A DNA stretch of 20,199 bases from Chrysochromulina tobinii (taxonomy: Eukaryota > Haptophyta > Prymnesiales > Chrysochromulinaceae): the NCBI GenBank assembly GCA_001275005.1, contig JWZX01002466.1, positions 1 to 20,199 of the forward strand. Reading direction: 5' to 3'. Within the stretch, counting starts at the first letter, position 1. The number at the start of each line of letters is the position of its first letter. The position numbers were made by a program, and so were the translations under genes. Below are positions 1 through 9,607 of this stretch, in pieces. The notes under the pieces are model-generated. The model searched no databases, was not told where the DNA came from, and saw nothing but the letters and a program-made list of their open reading frames with translations.

Positions 1-130
1 CCGTTGGAGCTCAGCCTTCCACAGGGACTCCTACGCAGCCTGTGCGCTCTCGCTGCCGGCGCAGTGCCGGAGGCGAAAGACGACGACGACGAGAGCGAGG
101 GCGACGAGAGTGAAGAGGAGGATGAGACCC
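1..130 (+). other. Possible upstream exon or acidic N-terminal segment of the RDR gene
   Basis: In the frame starting at base 1 this stretch encodes an acidic tract (KDDDDESEGDESEEEDE) typical of real coding sequence. The main RDR frame read through the same bases gives only Arg/Thr-rich sequence. The acidic frame needs an intron of length 1 modulo 3 to enter the RDR frame. GT at 131 with AG at 208-209 would do it (79 nt), but would skip RKGDP, so I do not commit to it. No convincing ATG lies in the acidic frame, so the gene probably begins left of the window. Confidence 0.4.
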
Positions 131-3100
131 GTCGCGAGCATATTGGGTTCGGTCGGCGCCATCCTACCCCGCCCCGCCCCCGGGGCAACGCTTCGCAAGG
201 GGGATCCAGTGGCAGTCTACTACGCCGCGCCGCACGACGGCTGGTACGAGGGTGTCGTGGTGCGCTGCTTGGATCGCGATGGCTACCAGACGCGCGTGAG
301 CTTTGCAGACGGAACCTTTGACGTTCCCCTCACACGCCGGCGGTACGGCCGCTTCGGCATGTGGGTGCTGCGCGACCCCTCACGGGCCGAGGAGTGGCGC
401 ACCTCTGGCCACACGCTGCTCGGCCAGAGGTGTTCGGTCCAAGGCCAGGCGGCGGTGGTGCTCATGTGGTGCGAGCAACGTAACCTCTTTGCCACCTTCT
501 CGGACGATGAGTTCGAGGCCGAGCTCACACTTGACGAGACGCGCGTGGCCGTGCAGGCGCACGCGATGCGCGCTGCCGCACCACTCGCGGCGTCGTCGCA
601 CTCCGGCGCGTCTGCTGGGCCGTCTGATGGGCTTTCTGCCGGCTGTGTCTCGGCGAGTGACAGAGCCGCAGCGGCGGCTGAGGCTGCGAATGGGGTGGCA
701 AGCGCGGCGGCGGCGGCGGCGGCGGCGAGCGTGGCGGCGACAGGGAACCTTCCTCGGCTGCCGGCGTGGGACCTGCCATGGCCTCTGGCGTGGGAGTTGG
801 AGCGCGTCCGGCAGCGCGATGGCTGGGAGCCGAGTGTCGCCGCGCTAGCATCCCTCCGCCAGAATTGGAACTGCCATCATTCGGAATGGTCATCATTCGA
901 CGCGGTGGCAAACGACGCGGAGGCGAGGGCAGCGTCGGCCCAGGAGGCGCTGGGCACAGGGCCTGCGCACGAGGCACCCAGTACGTGCGGTGGTGCCGAG
1001 GAGGAGCGCCGCCAGGCCCGCCACCGCCAGCGCACCGCTCTCGTGCGTCGTACGATCTCTACGCCCCTCGTGCTCCCATACGCGCCGTATGGGTATGCGC
1101 TCCGGTACCGCGCGCGCGTCGTGGCGGGCGGGCGCGTCGAGCTGCTCGAGGCACGCAAGGATGGTCGTACCTTTGCGCACGCGCTGCTGGGCGAAGAAGC
1201 TTGGATCAACGTGGAGTTCGAGACCCTGCCCGAAGGGAAGGACGCGAACACGCACGAACGCAGCGCGCAGCAGCGCGTGCTGGCCGACGGCCTCTTTGTT
1301 TGCGGTCGGCGATTCGTCTGCTTTGGCGCCAAGGAGGAGCACAAGCTAGAAGACTCTAAAGCTTACTTTGTGGCCGAGCGTGGCACCGTGCAGCCCTCAA
1401 TGCGATGTCTCTTCGAGTCGACCAGACGCGCGGCGGCGAGCGCGGCAGCCAAAGAGGGAGCGGTCGGTGGCGTGGCATGTGAGTCCTCACCGTGGACGTA
1501 CGTGGGCGTGCGTGCGGCGCGCGAGCTGATGGCCGATTTCCACAGTATGGCCTCAGTCGAAAAGTTGAACAAGCGGCTCCGCCTCCCCTTCTCGGGGACG
1601 CAGCTCGGGCTCGCTGGCTTCACCGCGCGCGTCTTCGACTACCGCACCTCGAGTGCCGCCTCCGCCTCGTCGCCCTCGAACGTAACGTACCTGCCCCTTG
1701 ACCAACAGTCGCCGTTACGGCGAGTCGCCGGCGGTGCGGGGACGCATGTGCACATCTACATCGTCGACGACGTTCCAGCGAGTTGCACCAAGCCGGGCGG
1801 CCGCCAGCCCGGGATTGATGCGAGGGGCAAGCTTGTCGTCATGAACGATGGATGCGGGCTCATCTCGTGCAACCTCGCCGTCCGCTTGCCAAGTGTGAGG
1901 AATGGATTGCTATCCCTTGGCCGCGGCGGAGGCGCGCACGGCGGGGGCGCTGGGCTCGATGCGGGCCGCGCGGCCCTTGGCAATCAGGTGCGCGTGTGGG
2001 CGCACGGCCACGTGGCCAAGGGCATGCTCATGACGAGCCAATCCTTGCCGCCGAATGTGATCGTGCTCACTCATTCACAGGTCAAAGTGACACCCCCGCC
2101 CCCGCACCGAGTCGGCGCCCAGGCTGGCGCCCAGGTTGGCGCCCAGGCCGGCGCCGACGCGGACGTGGTGGCAGCGCCCACGACGAAGGCGAGCGGCGGC
2201 GGCCTCTTTGCGCTCGAGCTCATCAGCGAAACGCACAAGCTGCCGCCTCGCCTCAACAAGCAGTTAATTCCCATTCTGGAAGAGGCCGCGGGCCCCAAGG
2301 GCTCAGATGAGCGGAAGCGCCTGGGCGCGCTGCTCCAGCGCTATGCTGAGCGCCAGGCTGAGCAGGTGCTGCAGCTGGGGAAGCCGAACCTCGACCGCGA
2401 GCAACAACTCGCAGCGACGCTGCGTCTCGCGCACGCCTCCTCCAGCCGCACGTCGCACTTTGGTTTGGGCACACCATCGCTCGCGGATATGGTCGACGCG
2501 GGCGTGGAGGTGCTACATGAGCCCTTCTTGCTGGACCGGTGCCAGAAGAGTATCGACGACACGCTGCGCAAGATCCGCACTGGCAAGCTGCTCGTGGGCG
2601 ACGCGTCGGTCGTGGTCAAGGGCATGCCCGATTTCACCGGCGATCTGGCCGAGGGCGAGATTATGCTCATCATCGACGGCAAGCACTCCCAGCCGCTCGC
2701 ACTCCGAGGCATCGACAACGACACCGCGTCGGGCGGCGGCGGCCAGCGTGGCGCCTCCACCTCCACCCCCGCGCTCGTCTATCGGCCGCCTGGGGTGCGC
2801 GCGAGCGACGTGCGCAAAGTGAAGTCAGTCTATTCACAGCGGCTCGTCGATGAGCTCTTCGGGGATGCCAACGCGATCGACTCCTCGCGCGCCTCCGCCG
2901 TCTTCTTCTCGATCCACGGTGCGCAGCCACTTGGCGACATGCTCGCGGGCGGCGACTACGATGGCGATGAATATTACATCTTTCAGGAGCGGGAGCTCAT
3001 CGATCTCTTCGAGGGCGGCGCGTGCGTCGAGGGCGCCGAATTGGGCACGACGCCGAACTCGGCCGCCCAAAAATTGGGCACGACGCCGAACTCGGCCGCC

Positions 3101-4465
3101 CTGACCGGCGGTGGCAGTGGGCAGAGTGGCGGTGCTGGCAGCGGCGGCAACGGCGGCGGCAGCGGCAGTGGGACTGGCGGCGGCGGGACTGGCAGCGGCG
3201 GCAGCGGCGGCGGGGGCGGCGGGACTGGCGGCGGGTGCAGCGGCATCGGCGGCAATGGCGGCAGCGGCCGTGGCGGGACTGGCAGCAGCAGCCGCAGCAG
3301 CCGTGGCGGTAGGAGCAGCGGGAGTAAGGTCGGTGCCGGCGCAGAGAGGCTGCCTGCGAGCCCTGCGGAACTCGAAGCTGCGCTGCACGCTCACTTTCTC
3401 ATGCTGCGCCACGACTGCAGCGTGGCGGCGGGCCAAGCGGAGGTCAACCACGAGGCCGCAGCCGACCGCCTGGGTCTGCGCCATCCCGTCACGGTAGAGC
3501 TCGGTGAGATGTACCTCGACCTGCTCGATGGTGCGGGCGACTCGGGCTTTCAAACCGAGCGGCTCAAGGTGCTTCGCGGCCTCGTGGGGTCGAGGCCGCG
3601 CTGGATGCGCGAGCACGGCAGAGGCGGCGACGTCAAATGGTGCTCTCCTGAGCGCCAGAGCGCCCTGATGGCCTCTGCTGGCCTCTGCTGGCCTCTGATG
3701 GCCTCTGATCACCTCTGATGACCTCTGATGGCTTCCTTCATCAGGTACTCTGCCGAGAGCCAGAGCGCCCTGGCGATGCTCGCCAATTTCACGCCTCCAG
3801 GCGGGGGTCGTCTGTCGCTATGCTCGGGAGGTCGGCTGAGTCTCGATCCTCACCTGCGTCTCGAGTTGCATCGCTCGCCCGACCTAGGGCCGGACGCGCT
3901 GGAAGCGATGGTGAAAAAGTGGCGCAAACGGCACCGGGAGTATAAAGTGAGCTTTAGCAAGCTGAAGCGTGCCCAAGAGGAGAAGCGCCAGCACGCGCGC
4001 CTCGACGCAAGCGAGGGCGAGCCGGCAGGCGGCGGCAGGAGCGGCGGCAGGAGCGGCGGCAGGAGCGGCGGCGGGAGTGGCGGCGGGAGTGGCGGCGGGA
4101 GTGAGCCTATCGCACCCGCCTCTGGCGACGACGACTGGGACGCCTTCGATCCGGAGTTCCAAGATCAGTACTCTGAACTTGTCGCGTCGATCCGCGAGCA
4201 CGAGCTGCTGGCGCCGTACGAGGGGGAGCGGAGGGCCTCACCGCTCGCCGAGCCGCCGCGCCTACTGGCCGAGGCGTGTGCGATCTACGAGGTTGTGTAC
4301 AGTGAGGCTCAGGCTAAGGCAGCCGCCATGGAGCACGTGGACCCGCGCTACTACACGGCGTTTGCATGGCACATGTGCGGCGACCTGCTACTCTATGTGC
4401 GCAAGGCGCGCCTCAGCCGCAATAGGGATCCGTCGCGTGCTCTGTTCAGCGGTCTGGTCAGGTGA
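110..4465 (+). CDS. RDR: RNA-dependent RNA polymerase (eukaryotic RDR/QDE-1 family), two exons
   Basis: This enzyme copies single-stranded RNA into dsRNA that feeds small-RNA silencing. Exon 1 (to 3639) and exon 2 (from 3745) join in frame across a 105-nt intron, giving about 1416 residues from the ATG at 110. Two Tudor-like stretches lie near residues 25-155, then an Ala-rich linker. The RDR core follows: DGLFVCGRRFVCF, MNDGCGLIS, the RVWAHGHVAKGML block, and the catalytic AGGDYDGDEYYI with Asp949, Asp951 and Asp953. A Gly/Ser-rich insertion follows the catalytic loop at about 1000-1075. Exon 2 carries the C-terminal RDR region with a basic helix (KKWRKRHREYKVSF), another Gly/Arg run and FAWHMCGDLLLYVRK. 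The 5' end is unresolved: this frame is open to the left edge of the window, and the neighbouring frame encodes an acidic tract at 85-130. The family is certain; the N-terminus is not. Confidence 0.9.
3039..3101 (+). repeat. In-frame 33-bp duplication in the RDR exon
   Basis: A 30-bp sequence at 3039-3068 recurs exactly at 3072-3101, a period of 33 bp. It encodes LGTTPNSAA twice, about 25 residues after the catalytic DYDGD. The 33-bp period keeps the frame, and perfect identity implies a recent duplication. Confidence 0.95.
3103..3330 (+). repeat. Gly/Ser-rich low-complexity insertion in the RDR
   Basis: GGCGGCAGC-type repeats encode about 75 residues that are mostly Gly and Ser. They sit between the catalytic loop and the following helical region (from SPAELEAALHAHF). 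The frame remains open and conserved RDR sequence resumes, so this is a disordered coding insertion and not an intron. Confidence 0.85.
3640..3744 (+). other. Intron of the RNA-dependent RNA polymerase gene
   Basis: A GT-AG intron of 105 nt, phase 2, splitting a Trp codon (TG before, G after). It must be removed to avoid the TGA at 3716-3718 and to join the catalytic part to the C-terminal RDR region in the same frame, giving DVKW followed by YSAESQSA. Its first 28 nt nearly copy the first 28 nt of exon 2 (24 of 28 identical). After that come six 10-bp units of the type GCCTCTGATG, and the intron ends TTCATCAG. Confidence 0.85.
3671..3730 (+). repeat. 10-bp tandem repeat inside the RDR intron
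   Basis: Six consecutive 10-bp units: GCCTCTGCTG twice, GCCTCTGATG, GCCTCTGATC, then ACCTCTGATG twice. The flanking decamers CGCCCTGATG (3661-3670) and GCTTCCTTCA (3731-3740) look like degenerate units. The left flank overlaps the copied exon segment, so the array may have expanded from it. Confidence 0.9.
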
Positions 4466-4816
4466 AAACGGGTGAGTTACCCAGGACAGCGCCCGACCCG
4501 CAGGCGGCAGGGGTGCACACGTTCACCGTTCAGAAGACTGTTCACACAGTCAGTCAGTCAGTTTTTTCGCGGCGCGGCCTCACACATGGGCCTCACAACA
4601 CCGCCGTCTCAGAGGTCAGAGGACGACTCCGCTTGCCGCTTCCCGCCCATGTTCCCGCCCCTCTGTCGAACACATCAAGTACTGAAGTAGAACGGTACTC
4701 GCTCGTGACTGTTCAATCCACAGTCGTCAGCGTATATCCCCACGCTCACCACACCGTCACAAAGTAGGGCTCCGGCGGCCTCCGCTGCGCCGGTCCTCAC
4801 AAGTTGAAGTTCAAAC
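4466..4816. other. Intergenic region between RDR and the first FkbM-like gene
   Basis: About 350 bases without a supported gene. It holds a short CAGT run (CAGTCAGTCAGT, near 4549-4560) and, just before the next ORF, a TTGAAGTTCAA near-palindrome at 4804-4814. GTGAGT at 4472 lies after the RDR stop, so it cannot serve that frame as a donor. It presumably contains the RDR 3' end and the promoter of the next gene; no clear TATA box is visible. Confidence 0.5.
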
Positions 4817-6097
4817 ATGCGTTGCGTACATTTACGGCAGTTCAAAAAGACTGAACAGCAAAAAGACATGCAGTGCCCGCCACTATTAGAGGGCTACCGT
4901 TCGATCCTCGCCGCGTTGGAGCGCGTTGGATGCAATGTGTGGTGTGACGTCGCAGGCGGAGGCACCATCGTAAACATTGGCGCACGGCTCCCGATCGGCA
5001 GATTTGACGACGACATCGCCTGGGACACTTTCCGCCGTGCCCCACAATTCAGGATGGTGGCGTTCGAGGGCAACAACGCTTCCATGGGCATCCTCCAGAG
5101 GGCTTTCCCGCCAGCACGAGCCACATCTGCTCGTGTTCAACTTGTGCACCGATATGTTGAGTCACGTACGATTGCGGCTGAGCTAAAGGCCAGAAAAGTG
5201 TCACCCCACTTTGCCCTTTTGAAGATTGACATCGACTCGATCGATCTGCCCATAGTGTGTGCGATCCTAGCCGGAGGCTTCCGACCGACGCTGATCATGG
5301 CCGAGTACAACCAATGGACACCGCCGCCTATTGAGTTCGCCGCACTCGAGCTTCGGCGCGGCGAAGAGTTCACAGGCCTCGTGCCAAGTTACCAGGCCAA
5401 TTTCCGTGGGTTTAACCGGGAGTGGCCGTGCGCAGGCACGTCGCTGGCAAGTTGGGCTCGGTTTGCTTCCGAGTTCGGGTACTCGCTCCTGCAACTTGAT
5501 AGGCCGCCGCTGAACTCCAACATCCTGATGCTGCGCTCCGATCTGCATGCGAAGCATTTTAGCGAGTGGAGCACGGGCCTCGATTGCCACTTGGGGGCTT
5601 TCAAGCATTGGGGCATGGTCAGACTCATCCCCTTTGACATGTACGCACGCATGTCTCGAGCGGAAAAGGGGTCATGGAGTTCCAAGCTGCCCGGTCACCC
5701 TCACCCTCGTGGCACGAACTCGCATCAGGGCAAGCTGCAGGTCAACGACTCAATGTCCAACAACTCAAACCCGGGACAGGCACAGTCGCTGCTGCATGCC
5801 AATGGGCATTGGGTATTCGATCGCTCCTACGACTTTGCGCCAGCGACTGCGAGAATTGACTCCCAGTGCCGCTTCGCACAGACGCCGTATCTGATGCGTC
5901 TCAACCACACATGCTGCCCTCTGAACGCATCGGATTCGCCACTTTGCCGTGGGGACTGTGAGTCCATTCAGCTCGGCACGGTGGCTCCCGCGGACGCCAT
6001 CCGCTCAGCCACCGCCCTGCGATCCTGGCTGTTGGCCAAAAAGCCACACATGGCGATGTCTTCACGCCTACGAGATCTTGGATCGGATCCTAAGTAA
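4817..6097 (+). CDS. FkbM-like methyltransferase domain protein
   Basis: A 426-residue protein. Residues 45-165 read as a SAM-dependent methyltransferase of the FkbM type: IVNIGA (51-56) at the position of the first glycine loop, VAFEGNN (81-87) with an acidic residue after strand 2, and LLKIDIDSIDLPI (134-146) with the family's characteristic Asp-rich strand, followed by AEYN (162-165). The substrate is unknown; FkbM proteins methylate sugars or small-molecule hydroxyls. The C-terminal half has several Cys residues (HTCCPLNASDSPLCRGDC) that could form disulfides. The ATG at 4817 is the first in frame; Met18 at 4868 is an alternative and leaves the domain intact. No convincing signal peptide is seen with either start. 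The neighbouring methyltransferase gene converges on it. Confidence 0.7.
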   Translation: MRCVHLRQFKKTEQQKDMQCPPLLEGYRSILAALERVGCNVWCDVAGGGTIVNIGARLPIGRFDDDIAWDTFRRAPQFRMVAFEGNNASMGILQRAFPPARATSARVQLVHRYVESRTIAAELKARKVSPHFALLKIDIDSIDLPIVCAILAGGFRPTLIMAEYNQWTPPPIEFAALELRRGEEFTGLVPSYQANFRGFNREWPCAGTSLASWARFASEFGYSLLQLDRPPLNSNILMLRSDLHAKHFSEWSTGLDCHLGAFKHWGMVRLIPFDMYARMSRAEKGSWSSKLPGHPHPRGTNSHQGKLQVNDSMSNNSNPGQAQSLLHANGHWVFDRSYDFAPATARIDSQCRFAQTPYLMRLNHTCCPLNASDSPLCRGDCESIQLGTVAPADAIRSATALRSWLLAKKPHMAMSSRLRDLGSDPK

Positions 6098-6359
6098 ATA
6101 CATTCTGCGATATGTAATTGCTGGGACCACGGTGCTCTTTCGTGTAAGGTGAGTTGACGTGTCTGACATGGACATACATTGAGGGACTGGATTGATCTAT
6201 TCTCAGTGTGACTTTGTGAAGGAGCCAGCATCCGCATGATCCGAGTACCGCGGAGATGCCCAGCAGCCAGCTGTTGTGGAGGAAATTGTAGAAGCTAGAA
6301 GGAAAGAACGCCGTTGCCGGGCGCGGCAGCCGGCACGGATTCCATTTCGATTGGATACA

Positions 6360-7477
6360 CTACCCAGCAAGCGCGCGTTTGACCTCCCACTCCTCGCGCG
6401 AGCCGGTGACCACCTCCGCCGCGAGGCACGTGAGGCGCGAACCACACTCGAGGGTCGAGAGGTTGAAGCCCAGCCGCACTCGCGTCACGCGACGCCGGCA
6501 GCGCCAATGGAGCTGCGCGGCCGCAAAGCCGGCGCAAGTGGGAGTGGGCCGAGCACCGCGCTGGTATGCCATGTGAGTCGGCGCCGCAGCGCCGTAGAGT
6601 GCATCCTGCACCCGCCACACGCGACGGAAACCAAAACGCAGCAATTTCACGTGCCATGCGCCGTATGAGAAGGGTCGATGGCGATTGAAGTCGGCCTCGA
6701 AGATGAGCAGTGAGAGGGTCGGCTGGGAGAGCGCCTCGTCACTGAGCGCATCGGGCATGCAGCCCTCGCAATCAAGCACGATCACGTCGAAGGCCACCAG
6801 CCCCACGTACATTGCAAGCTCAGTCACGGTCAGCCGTGCGAGTGGGGTGATGCCCTCGCCACCTCGCGACGCGGCCGGGGCGTCGCGTGTCTGCAAGTCA
6901 TATGTCCGCTTTCGGCCGAGCGCATCCTGCGAGGGAAGCACCTGGTCTCTCGTACCGATTGTGCCGCGGAACACGCCGACGCGGCACGCGTGCGCGCGCA
7001 GATTGGCACGAAGGGCGTTATGTGCTTTGGGATCCGGCTCGACACTCACGACTTTGCCACTATTGTTCGTGACCTCTGCCAGTACGCAAGAGGTCGTGCC
7101 GTACCTGCCGCCGAGTTCCAGGACAGCATGATGCGGTGCCACCAGCGCACGCGCGAGCGTCCACATGTCTGATTCGATGCCGCAAGGATTGGCACCTTTG
7201 AACGTCCGGCAAGCGCCCTGCCGAATCGGCCACCACGTACCCCACGAGAAGGTGGCAGCAGCGCGCAAGCCAAGCTCACTCTGCGGCCGGTGCGCGCGCC
7301 GAGCCGGTCAAATAGGGTGTGGGCGCATCGTAAAAGTGCGTAAAGGCATGCGATGAGCGGGCCGACATCGACCACCGATGAGAGTGCAGTGCTGAATGCA
7401 TGTGCTGGTACAGTGAACGAACAACATATGGCTGGTCGGTACCTTGTGTGTCGATTCAACTGACCCTTTCTCAACAT
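6360..7477 (-). CDS. FkbM-like SAM-dependent methyltransferase, probably two exons
   Basis: The main exon (7217 down to 6360, 285 residues) has a clear Rossmann methyltransferase core: AVLELGGRYGTTS (glycine loop), VVSVEPDP (acidic end of strand 2), and FDVIVLDCEGCMPDAL (strand 4, FkbM style). This frame has no usable ATG upstream: only TTG codons precede the domain, and a stop lies at 7308-7310. An upstream ATG at 7475-7477 opens a 66-codon exon ending in CGCAGA before GTGAGC. Splicing 7279-7218 joins it in phase 0, giving about 351 residues. The exon contains a hydrophobic stretch (VVDVGPLIACLYALL) that could be a membrane anchor. The domain call is firm; the first exon is inferred. It lies tail to tail with the other FkbM-like gene, 262 bp away. 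Confidence 0.65.
7218..7279 (-). other. Proposed intron of the minus-strand FkbM-like gene
   Basis: The donor is AGA|GTGAGC at 7279 and the acceptor is TTCGGCAG at 7218, 62 nt, phase 0. It links the only upstream ATG-led frame to the methyltransferase frame. Unlike the other two introns in the window, it shows no clear copy of the exon start. An alternative acceptor, TTCAAAG, lies 20 nt further in. Confidence 0.45.
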
Positions 7478-8091
7478 ATGAATAAATTTACTTCTTTGTC
7501 TTCATTTGGCGTTTGCATGCGGCATATGAAAGCTGTACGTGGGCCTAGTAACCAACTCAGTAATACATCAGTCGTTTATGTCGCGCCACAGCCGCGGCTC
7601 ACCACAACACCGTGGCCAACCCCGTATTCATTCCCGCAGCCCGCTCCGTACGTATTAAGGAATGGAAACAGAACAAGCGTGATGGAACAAGGTAAAAGGT
7701 TCACATAAACAAGGTTATTTTTAGTCCCGACGCGTGCGTCCTATCTCAGACTCACAGGCCCGTGCGCGACACCGATGGCCCATATCCCCTCGTGAGCATG
7801 ACTGTGAAAGGCGCGTCTCCGCCCCGCGCCCGTCGGGCTCAACCAAGATCCAGCATCGGCCATGGCATCGGCATGTCGGCCGACTCATCGTCATCCACAG
7901 CGCTGTCCACCGCGCGATACCCGTCCCCGCCCCCACACACCAACGCAAACATCGAGGTCCAACGCGCAACACTGCAGTCACGACGCTGCAGTCACGCCCA
8001 TCACGACGCTGCAGTCGCGACGCTGCAGTCACGCCCATGGCGGCTCCCCAGCCTGCCCTCGGCGCCACGGCGGCTCCAAAAGCCGCCCCGC
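7478..8091. other. Intergenic region with tandem repeats, no supported gene
   Basis: About 610 bases. The left half (about 7430-7720) is visibly more AT-rich than its surroundings and is probably the promoter side of the minus-strand methyltransferase gene. The right half holds a compound tandem repeat at 7970-8038. Open frames here have no recognisable protein features. Confidence 0.5.
7970..8038 (+). repeat. Compound tandem repeat with CTGCAG core
   Basis: The unit CGACGCTGCAGTCACGCCCA and shortened versions of it recur, giving four CTGCAG sites within about 70 bp. It lies just beyond the 3' end of the formaldehyde dehydrogenase gene and is non-coding. Confidence 0.85.
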
Positions 8092-9607
8092 TCAGAGCGC
8101 CTGCACCTTACCGGTCATCTTGTGTGGATCGATCACGTACTTGACAGCCTCGCCCTGATCGAAGTTCTTGTAGCCCATCGGCGCGTCGTCGAGGCTGATC
8201 ACCTTGGCGTTCACCGCCTTGGCGATGTGAATCTTTTCGTACAGAATCGCATTCATCAGCGGCCGGTGGTACTTCATCACGGGGCACTGGCCGGTATGCA
8301 TGGAAGCGGATTTGGACCAGCCGAGGCCAAAACGCATGGAGAGGTTGCCTAATTTCGAAGCGGCATCGACCGCGCCCGGGTCCTCTGTGACGTACAGCCC
8401 CGGAATGCCAATCTGGCCGCCCTCGCGCACAATCGTCATGCAATCGTTGAGGACTTGGGCGGGCACCTGATACATGAGGCGATCATATGCAATCAGATGT
8501 GCAATCATGTGCAATAAGGTGGATGTCGTTGAGGACTTGCGCGGGCACCTCGCCCGAGGCGGCCTTGCCCATGCCACGAGCTTCGAATCCGACACAGTCG
8601 ACCGCCGCATCGACCGTTGGAGAGCCGGTGATGGCGTGGATCTTGTCCGAGATGGTCCCGTCCGTCCGGATGTCGAGAGTCTCGCACCCAAACGACCGCG
8701 CCTGCGCAAGGCGCTCGGGGATTGCGTCGCCGACGATGACACAAGCGGCACCGAGGAGCTGGCACGAAGCGGCGCATGCCAGACCGACAGGGCCGGCGCC
8801 AGCGACGTAGACGATGGAGCCGGGGCCCACCTTAGCCATCACCGCGCCGTGGAAGCCCGTCGGGAAGATGTCTGAGAGCAGCGTCAGGTCGGTAATTTTC
8901 TCCATGGCCTGCGCGCGATCTGGGAACTTGAGCAGGTTGAAGTCCGCATACGGGACCATCACGTACTCGGCCTGGCCGCCCACCCAGCCGCCCATGTCGA
9001 CGTAGCCGTAGGCCGCGCCCGCGCGCGCCGGGTTGACGTTCAGGCACACACCCGTGTCCCCGCGCTTGCACGCCGGGCAGCGGCCACACGCGATGTTGAA
9101 TGGAACTGAGCACACGTCGCCCCTCTGCACAAATTCCACATCCTTGCCCACCTCGATGACTTCGCCCGTGATCTCATGACCCAGGACCATGTAGCCGCCG
9201 GGCAATGACGTGCGTCCTCTCACCATGTGCTGGTCCGAGCCGCAGATGTTTGTCGTCACCACTTTGAGGATCGCACCGTGCTCACACTTGCGCTTCTGCC
9301 GCTCAGTGACGACCGGCGACGAGGTCGAGTCGAGCTCGAGCTTGGGGAAGGCGATGGGCTTTACTTGGACGTCGCCGGGCGCCATATACACGACGCCGCG
9401 ATTCGTCGCGCCGGCGGCGGACACCATGTGTCGCTCATGGATGGGACGGCCGCCCAGGCTGCCGGAGTTGCACGCTGTGCAGGCGCACCCGGAAGTGTGC
9501 GAGGTGTTCTTGGCGTTCAAAATACCGCCTGCGGTTGAGATGCAGCGGCTATTGGCGCAGCACGCCGCGTGGTGCGCCCACACCGGGGTGCGTCGAAGGA
9601 GCTGCAT
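8092..9607 (-). CDS. fdhA: Glutathione-independent formaldehyde dehydrogenase (zinc MDR family), two exons
   Basis: This NAD-dependent zinc alcohol-dehydrogenase-family enzyme oxidises formaldehyde without glutathione. Exon 1 (9607-8549) and exon 2 (8466-8092) join in phase 0 across an 82-nt intron, giving 477 residues. Catalytic zinc ligands are Cys122 (NICGSDQH), His144 (GHEITG) and Asp246 (LLSDIFPTG). Structural-zinc cysteines are 174, 177, 180 and 188, and the NAD loop is GAGPVG (270-275). Exon 2 supplies GIPGLYVTEDPGAVDAA, RFGLGW, HTGQCPVMKY and VISLDDAPMGY, all very like Pseudomonas FdhA. Bacterial proteins begin at NRGVVY, so about 65 extra N-terminal residues precede it. These are rich in Arg, Ala, Ser and Cys and may target mitochondria; Met61 (9427) is an alternative start. 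It is divergent from the PHD-finger gene. Confidence 0.92.
8467..8548 (-). other. Intron of the formaldehyde dehydrogenase gene
   Basis: An 82-nt GT-AG intron, phase 0, between GGCGAG and GTGCCC. Removing it shifts the frame exactly as needed to link the two coding blocks. The first 23 nt of the intron match the first 23 nt of exon 2 at 22 positions, and both copies are preceded by AG. Both copies would encode VPAQVLND. Imperfect 10-12-nt units of the type ATTGCACATG follow, and the intron ends TGTATCAG. Unspliced RNA reaches a stop after 21 further codons. Confidence 0.9.

Follow-up and report, generated by a model that had tools for sequence, protein, structure and literature searches.

Known routes of intron gain

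The gain of introns in bulk is an old open question, for which transposition is the leading answer in introner-rich genomes (PMC9860276). Introners (PMC9860276), the break-repair introns of Daphnia (PMC4202315, PMC3443670) and tandem duplications of AGGT-containing segments (PMC4974935) are already known kinds of gained introns. In the introner families characterized earlier, target-site duplications (TSDs) are 3-9 bp long, and terminal inverted repeats were found in 72 of the 177 families that could be assessed (PMC9860276). Here we describe probable introns of the haptophyte Chrysochromulina tobinii that open by repeating the first letters of the following exon and commonly continue as arrays of 10-nucleotide (nt) units. 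The analysis departs from two such introns in one window, which is the entire 20,199-bp contig C1320 of a 53.15-Mb assembly of 2,253 contigs, and extends to two samples of introns from the whole genome.

Two window introns of the same architecture

One of the two introns lies in an RdRP gene and the other, on the opposite strand, in a gene for formaldehyde dehydrogenase. Their parts are as follows, with the evidence in brackets.

3640..3744, + strand: intron 1, RdRP gene, 105 nt (sequence; proteins P0126 and P0127 are continuous at the site, P0125 runs into it)
3640..3667, + strand: exon-start copy of intron 1, 28 nt, provides the 5' GT (24 of 28 positions identical to 3745-3772)
3665..3732, + strand: array of intron 1, 10-nt unit with the consensus CTGATGGCCT, repeated 6.8 times (89% matches in Tandem Repeats Finder)
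3736..3744, + strand: 3' end of intron 1, CTTCATCAG (sequence; genome count of CYTCATCAGGY)
3745..3772, + strand: copied exon segment of intron 1 (alignment with the intron start)
8467..8548, - strand: intron 2, formaldehyde dehydrogenase gene, 82 nt (P0006 joins exactly here)
8526..8548, - strand: exon-start copy of intron 2, 23 nt, provides the 5' GT (22 of 23 positions identical)
8482..8515, - strand: array of intron 2, about 3.2 units of 10 nt, of the ATTGCACATG/CTGATTGCAT type (Tandem Repeats Finder, 80% matches)
8467..8471, - strand: 3' end of intron 2, ATCAG (sequence)
8444..8466, - strand: copied exon segment of intron 2 (alignment with the intron start)

The original prediction, made from the letters of the window, had described both introns as an exon copy, units of about 10 nt and ATCAG directly before GT, and this anatomy was confirmed, with four mismatches in the copy of intron 1. 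Intron 1 terminates in TTCATCAG/GT and intron 2 in TATCAG/GT (here and below the slash marks the splice junction). Their copies score 18 and 20.5, respectively, while the 3,240 cross-pairings of the 108-end set described below peak at 14; both introns lack the CCTCATCAG end and stand outside that set.

The boundaries were placed with the help of homologous proteins. Across the site of intron 2, the NCBI protein P0006 reads SGE/VPAQVLNDC exactly, and the insert is missing from P0005, P0007-P0010 and the solved enzyme 1KOL, whereas P0014, the other 350 residues of which are identical, holds intron 2 as an in-frame insert of 27 residues (equivalent to 81 nt, compared with 82 here). P0126 and P0127 read straight through the site of intron 1, and P0125, a relative's protein, ends in ...KW-CSPESQSAL-MTSDDL, which reads as the copy plus two units; P0125 thus stops within intron 1 and resembles an open frame translated directly from DNA. 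Because the homologues match the downstream copy and the sequence after it, the upstream copy is the addition. Some of the insert-free proteins may be derived from cDNA or from spliced models, and they mark the junction rather than the absence of an intron; the introns are probably missing in the organisms of these proteins. Splicing of the arrays is predicted, with the insert-free proteins at both sites as indirect evidence. An assembly artefact was ruled out, since another assembly also has intron 2 (in P0014) and a relative's protein, P0125, includes the first part of intron 1. A DNA search with intron 2 as the query matched intron 2 only, perhaps because its units are too degenerate.

Genome-wide distribution of ends and units

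The sequences found in the two introns recur throughout the genome. The end CCTCATCAGGT is present at 2,093 sites (8 for its reversed control), CYTCATCAGGY at 2,923 (43 for the control), and the array pattern GATGGCCTCTGATGGCCTCTGATG, searched with up to 2 mismatches and overlapping matches counted, gave 4,299 matches (0 for the control). The unit types of introns 1 and 2 vary a single theme that recurs across the genome. The original prediction had proposed that the units are local and belong to no dispersed family, which was wrong by the counts of GATGGCCTCTGATGGCCTCTGATG and CCTCATCAGGT. Judging by the sampled sites, all sites with the shared end are likely to be introns. The first 100 places of CCTCATCAGGT are spread over 36 contigs among the first 127, with a variance-to-mean ratio of 4.45. 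Viral contigs were also scanned for CTGATTGCCTCCCTCATCAGGT, with no match.

The intron bodies have a period of 10 nt. In 93 bodies, self-match at lags of 10, 20 and 30 was 0.49, 0.44 and 0.40, compared with about 0.26 in dinucleotide shuffles, and did not exceed 0.29 at any other lag from 4 to 31. The motif CTGAY occurs 4.1 times per 100 nt in the bodies, 2.7 times in shuffled bodies and 0.7 times in exon starts. The general branch point consensus is CTRAY, and by this consensus the CTGAY in the repeat unit would be a putative branch point.

Exon copies in two sets of introns

The first set comprised 108 distinct CCTCATCAG/GT ends, mostly from the first 100 CCTCATCAGGT places in contig order, with some from the other searches, and hence not a random sample. 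For each end, up to 300 nt upstream were searched for the highest-scoring copy anchored to the start of the exon. A copy of the next exon was detected at a score of at least 11 in 55 of the 108 ends (at least 15 in 39 and at least 20 in 27), compared with 0.22% of 3,240 cross-pairings, none of which reached 15 or 20 (maximum 14). Among 52 ends of the form C[CT]TCATCAG/GT, 28 scored at least 11, compared with 1.2% of 1,040 control pairs, a control that kept neighbouring loci and had a top score of 26. The 54 copies starting with GT are 95.7% identical to their exons and 23 of them are perfect. Measured in an exon window of 80 nt, 51 of these are 11-44 nt long, and the remaining three, at 56, 69 and 70 nt, are tandem blocks, with a median of 21.5 nt for all 54; the lower bound of 11 nt was set by the score cut-off, and shorter copies are possible among the other ends.

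The second set was selected by homology. The kinesin motor domain PF00225 had 130 matches in the genome, from which 30 stretches with gaps between matches were taken; by reading, 11 of them had coding insertions only and 19 had introns. The boundaries of 30 introns were placed by hand after viewing the sequences, and L103 (a cut-off intron) and L109 (non-canonical) were excluded. Strict in-register copies at both splice sites were found in 9 of these 30 introns at a score of at least 10, compared with 0.12% of 842 controls, and a copy of the exon start or exon end anywhere in the intron was found in 12 at a score of at least 11, compared with 0.8% of the 842. In addition, 14 of the 30 have a 10-nt self-similarity above 99% of 200 shuffles. 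The recurrence of the process in C. tobinii, the excess of similarity between intron start and next-exon start over shuffled pairs, and the 10-nt period, all of which the original prediction had anticipated or suggested as checks, were borne out on these samples (the excess on the 108 ends and the 30 kinesin introns rather than on all annotated introns).

The kinesin introns are also diverse. L089, L092, L097 and L106 have a mirror layout with a copy of the previous exon's end, in which the copied exon end would give the 3' splice site and the element the GT. L109 copies an AGGT-spanning stretch, with AG and GT both within the duplicated stretch. Exon copies with other fillers are carried by L109, which has (TTGAC)n, and by L099, in which a copy of about 30 nt is followed by a body without the genome-wide units. 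Several introns, such as L094, L095 and L102, are plain. In view of the L089-type, L109-type and plain introns, the process is broader than one architecture, and many introns are without it. A second level of repetition was observed in L092, L103, L108 and L137, where whole blocks of copy plus element, about 60-75 nt long, stand in tandem at one site. The kinesin matches C3:9508-10677 (G000) and C2170:40717-41886 are equal in score and length, which is likely due to redundant assembly.

Junctions and local variants

At the left junction, where the exon copy meets the array, microhomology of at least 2 nt (range 2-7 nt) was observed in 13 of 23 testable junctions, compared with 5.7% expected. 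The test examines whether the repeat phase can be followed backwards into the last letters of the exon copy and needs a clear 10-nt period at the start of the insert. A stricter, CTGA-anchored test was positive in 11 of 53 distinct junctions, compared with 7.9% (p 0.0024), and in 11 of 17 when restricted to the junctions that start with CTGA without a gap. Templated end joining, one of the routes named in the original prediction, fits this microhomology.

Intron bodies resemble their neighbours. For 166 pairs on the same contig and strand at different sites, the likeness was 0.205, compared with 0.138 between contigs (0 of 5,000 permutations); 29 same-site pairs had been excluded. Likeness was not raised for pairs on opposite strands of one contig (0.142, 21 pairs). 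The permutation count was 19 of 5,000 without C90, the contig with the strongest effect, 28 of 5,000 without C90 and C88, and 11 of 5,000 without C90, C88, C567 and C89. As an example of a local variant, TTGATTGCACTCCTCATCAGGT occurs exactly 4 times, always in C90, and 6 times in C90 (5 sites) plus once in C592 if C is allowed as the first base. The C90 introns are all along one strand, the open frames between them were read by eye as filamin-like repeats, and they probably lie in one gene.

Proposed mechanism and alternatives

The explanation that we prefer, with a probability of roughly 0.5, is that the introns arise when a break or fork is repaired with an intron already present, often a neighbouring one, as the template and with priming by microhomology (microhomology-primed copying), the copying itself being what we infer. 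A broken or stalled strand end, for example ...CTG, would pair over a few bases with the CTGAT complement of an intron array, would be extended on the ten-letter repeats of the donor intron as far as CATCAG(G)T, and would then resume on its own template from a GT 11-44 nt further upstream. The exon stretch would thereby be duplicated, with the first GT acting as the 5' splice site, the copied CATCAG as the 3' splice site and the CTGAY of the unit as the branch point, and the mRNA would be unchanged after removal of the new intron. Selection would keep only those returns that restore the frame, and repetition at the same AG/GT would build tandem arrays (compare the TCAG that precedes 15 of the 54 copies). 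Either a staggered break or a stalled fork could be the trigger. A more novel reading, somewhat less likely than not, is that replication or repair polymerases have jumped by few-base homology into the CTGAT array of a nearby intron and back, thousands of times and without a transposon, each time leaving in the same gene a spliceable copy that has its own branch points.

Several observations weigh against microhomology-primed copying. No copy was found in 53 of the 108 ends at a score of 11 or in 18 of the 30 kinesin introns, 26 of 49 junctions were untestable by periodicity, and a CTGA start is lacking from 33 of the 53 junctions in the CTGA test. At the right junction, G stands before GT in 29 of 39 cases, which splicing demands likewise. 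The locality is uneven: likeness within contigs exceeds that between contigs in 11 of 15 contigs (Wilcoxon 0.013; sign test p 0.059), with no effect in C127, C33, C40 and C1665; at up to 1 mismatch, TTGATTGCACTCCTCATCAGGT has 12 matches, 6 in C90 and 6 elsewhere; and a second variant, TGATTACCTCCCTCATCAGG, occupies 13 sites over 11 contigs with just two same-contig pairs. Later gene conversion could be the source of the local likeness. Finally, neither a new event nor RNA was observed, and no donor-recipient pair was proven.

Among the alternatives, the one that survives best, and that we still regard as improbable, is an introner in the sense of a non-autonomous DNA transposon that brings its own 3' splice site and obtains the 5' site from its TSD. 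Introners of this type are described in PMC9860276. In favour of one here stand the 2,093 sites with one common end and, as a possible trace of terminal inverted repeats, the CTGA start near the junction (20 of 53) together with the constant ATCAG end, a 5-nt inverted match to CTGAT. However, a cut-and-paste transposon predicts a single duplication length, whereas the duplications here range from 11 to 44 nt (3-9 bp in the families characterized earlier, PMC9860276), and contig-local variants and variable repeat number misfit one mobile unit. Retroposition of a short repeat RNA by target-primed reverse transcription, in the manner of a short interspersed nuclear element, is placed next and is also unlikely: it could account for the variable duplication length, the constant CATCAG end, the variable 5' extent and the left microhomology, but it does not lead one to expect variants common to one contig and strand, and no RNA source turned up, although no search for one was made. 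We give slightly less credence to a model proposed for Daphnia, in which the ends of a staggered double-strand break are joined with filler of arbitrary origin, here with later slippage of the minisatellite kind. The direct repeats that flank gained introns of Daphnia at their opposite ends (PMC4202315) and the other fillers of L109 and L099 speak for it, but most of the filler belongs to a single theme that is spread over the genome and constant at its end, and this favours introns as the source of the copy.

Classical tandem duplication, in which an exon segment with AGGT is doubled and slips in its middle, comes close to the idea of the original prediction and is very improbable: some introns such as L109 fit it, but as a general rule it is ruled out, since AG precedes the copied GT in just 6 of 39 non-nested cases and the units are common to loci across the genome. 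Reverse splicing, for its part, duplicates no exon sequence.

If microhomology-primed copying is the true source, new introns could enter genes in large numbers with no need for a mobile element, and a new intron would have a branch point at once, as CTGAY, in its putative role, sits in the repeat unit. C. tobinii offers a small sequenced genome in which the footprints of gain look fresh, by the identity of the copies given above, and are numerous, with both microhomology and contig-local variants; therefore, donor tracing and strain comparison could tell transposition and repair-templated copying apart directly.

Host genes and other features of the window

The window has a GC content of 63.5%. 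For the C. tobinii genome, PMC4580454 gives 59 Mb, 16,777 genes, a mean of one intron per gene and 63.4% GC, and its available text contains the word intron once, for this per-gene average. The coding parts of the two host genes are the following.

2..3639, + strand: RdRP gene, coding part before intron 1 (open frame that runs in from the edge of the window; PF05183 at 4.2e-45 on the spliced protein)
3745..4465, + strand: RdRP gene, downstream coding part, ending at the stop (PF05183 match of the spliced protein)
8549..9427, - strand: formaldehyde dehydrogenase, coding part 5' of intron 2 (homologue alignment)
8092..8466, - strand: formaldehyde dehydrogenase, coding part 3' of intron 2, to the stop (homologue alignment)

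The RdRP coding sequence contains a perfect 33-bp tandem duplication at 3039-3101 (1.9 copies), adjoining a long Gly/Ser low-complexity stretch. The host of intron 2 is a glutathione-independent formaldehyde dehydrogenase, with 1KOL as the best solved relative (E 9.7e-168), and the NCBI formaldehyde dehydrogenase of C. tobinii, P0006, matches the spliced window gene. The P0006 model (8467-9427, - strand) also skips 22 residues, VNPARAGAAYGYVDMGGWVGGQ, which are present in the six other relatives of alignment A1 and may represent either a mis-annotated intron or an exitron. Tandem CTGCAGTCACGACG repeats occupy 7972-8033, directly downstream of the dehydrogenase gene. Scans of the window with Rfam (gathering thresholds) and for tRNAs gave no matches.

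Comparison with known systems

Among the literature matches listed, no report of these introns, of their long variable duplications or of local variants was found. Introners share with the C. tobinii introns the presence of many similar introns in one genome (here 4,299 arrays and 2,093 ends, presumed to be introns) and the origin of one splice site from the element and the other from the target (PMC9860276). A family of 'Chrysochromulina sp.' is described in the same paper as having 4-bp TSDs, its own 5' splice site and a co-opted 3' site. In contrast, the copy gives the 5' site in C. tobinii, the bodies are 10-nt arrays with contig-clustered variants, and 51 of 54 copies are 11-44 nt long instead of the 3-9 bp of the families characterized earlier, copies below the cut-off being possible among the other ends.

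The break-repair introns of Daphnia (PMC4202315, PMC3443670) resemble those of C. tobinii in having direct repeats at opposite ends and recurrent events at one site, and direct repeats of varying length at both intron ends are indeed present in C. tobinii. The source of most Daphnia introns is unknown, whereas one genome-wide theme with a constant end prevails in C. tobinii. With tandem duplication of AGGT (the model of Rogers; potato RdRp, PMC4974935), the C. tobinii introns have in common that an exon stretch is present twice and that the mRNA is predicted to be unchanged. They differ from it in that the body is mostly not duplicated exon, L109 being the exception with AG and GT inside the duplicated stretch, and in that the duplicated stretch usually starts at GT.

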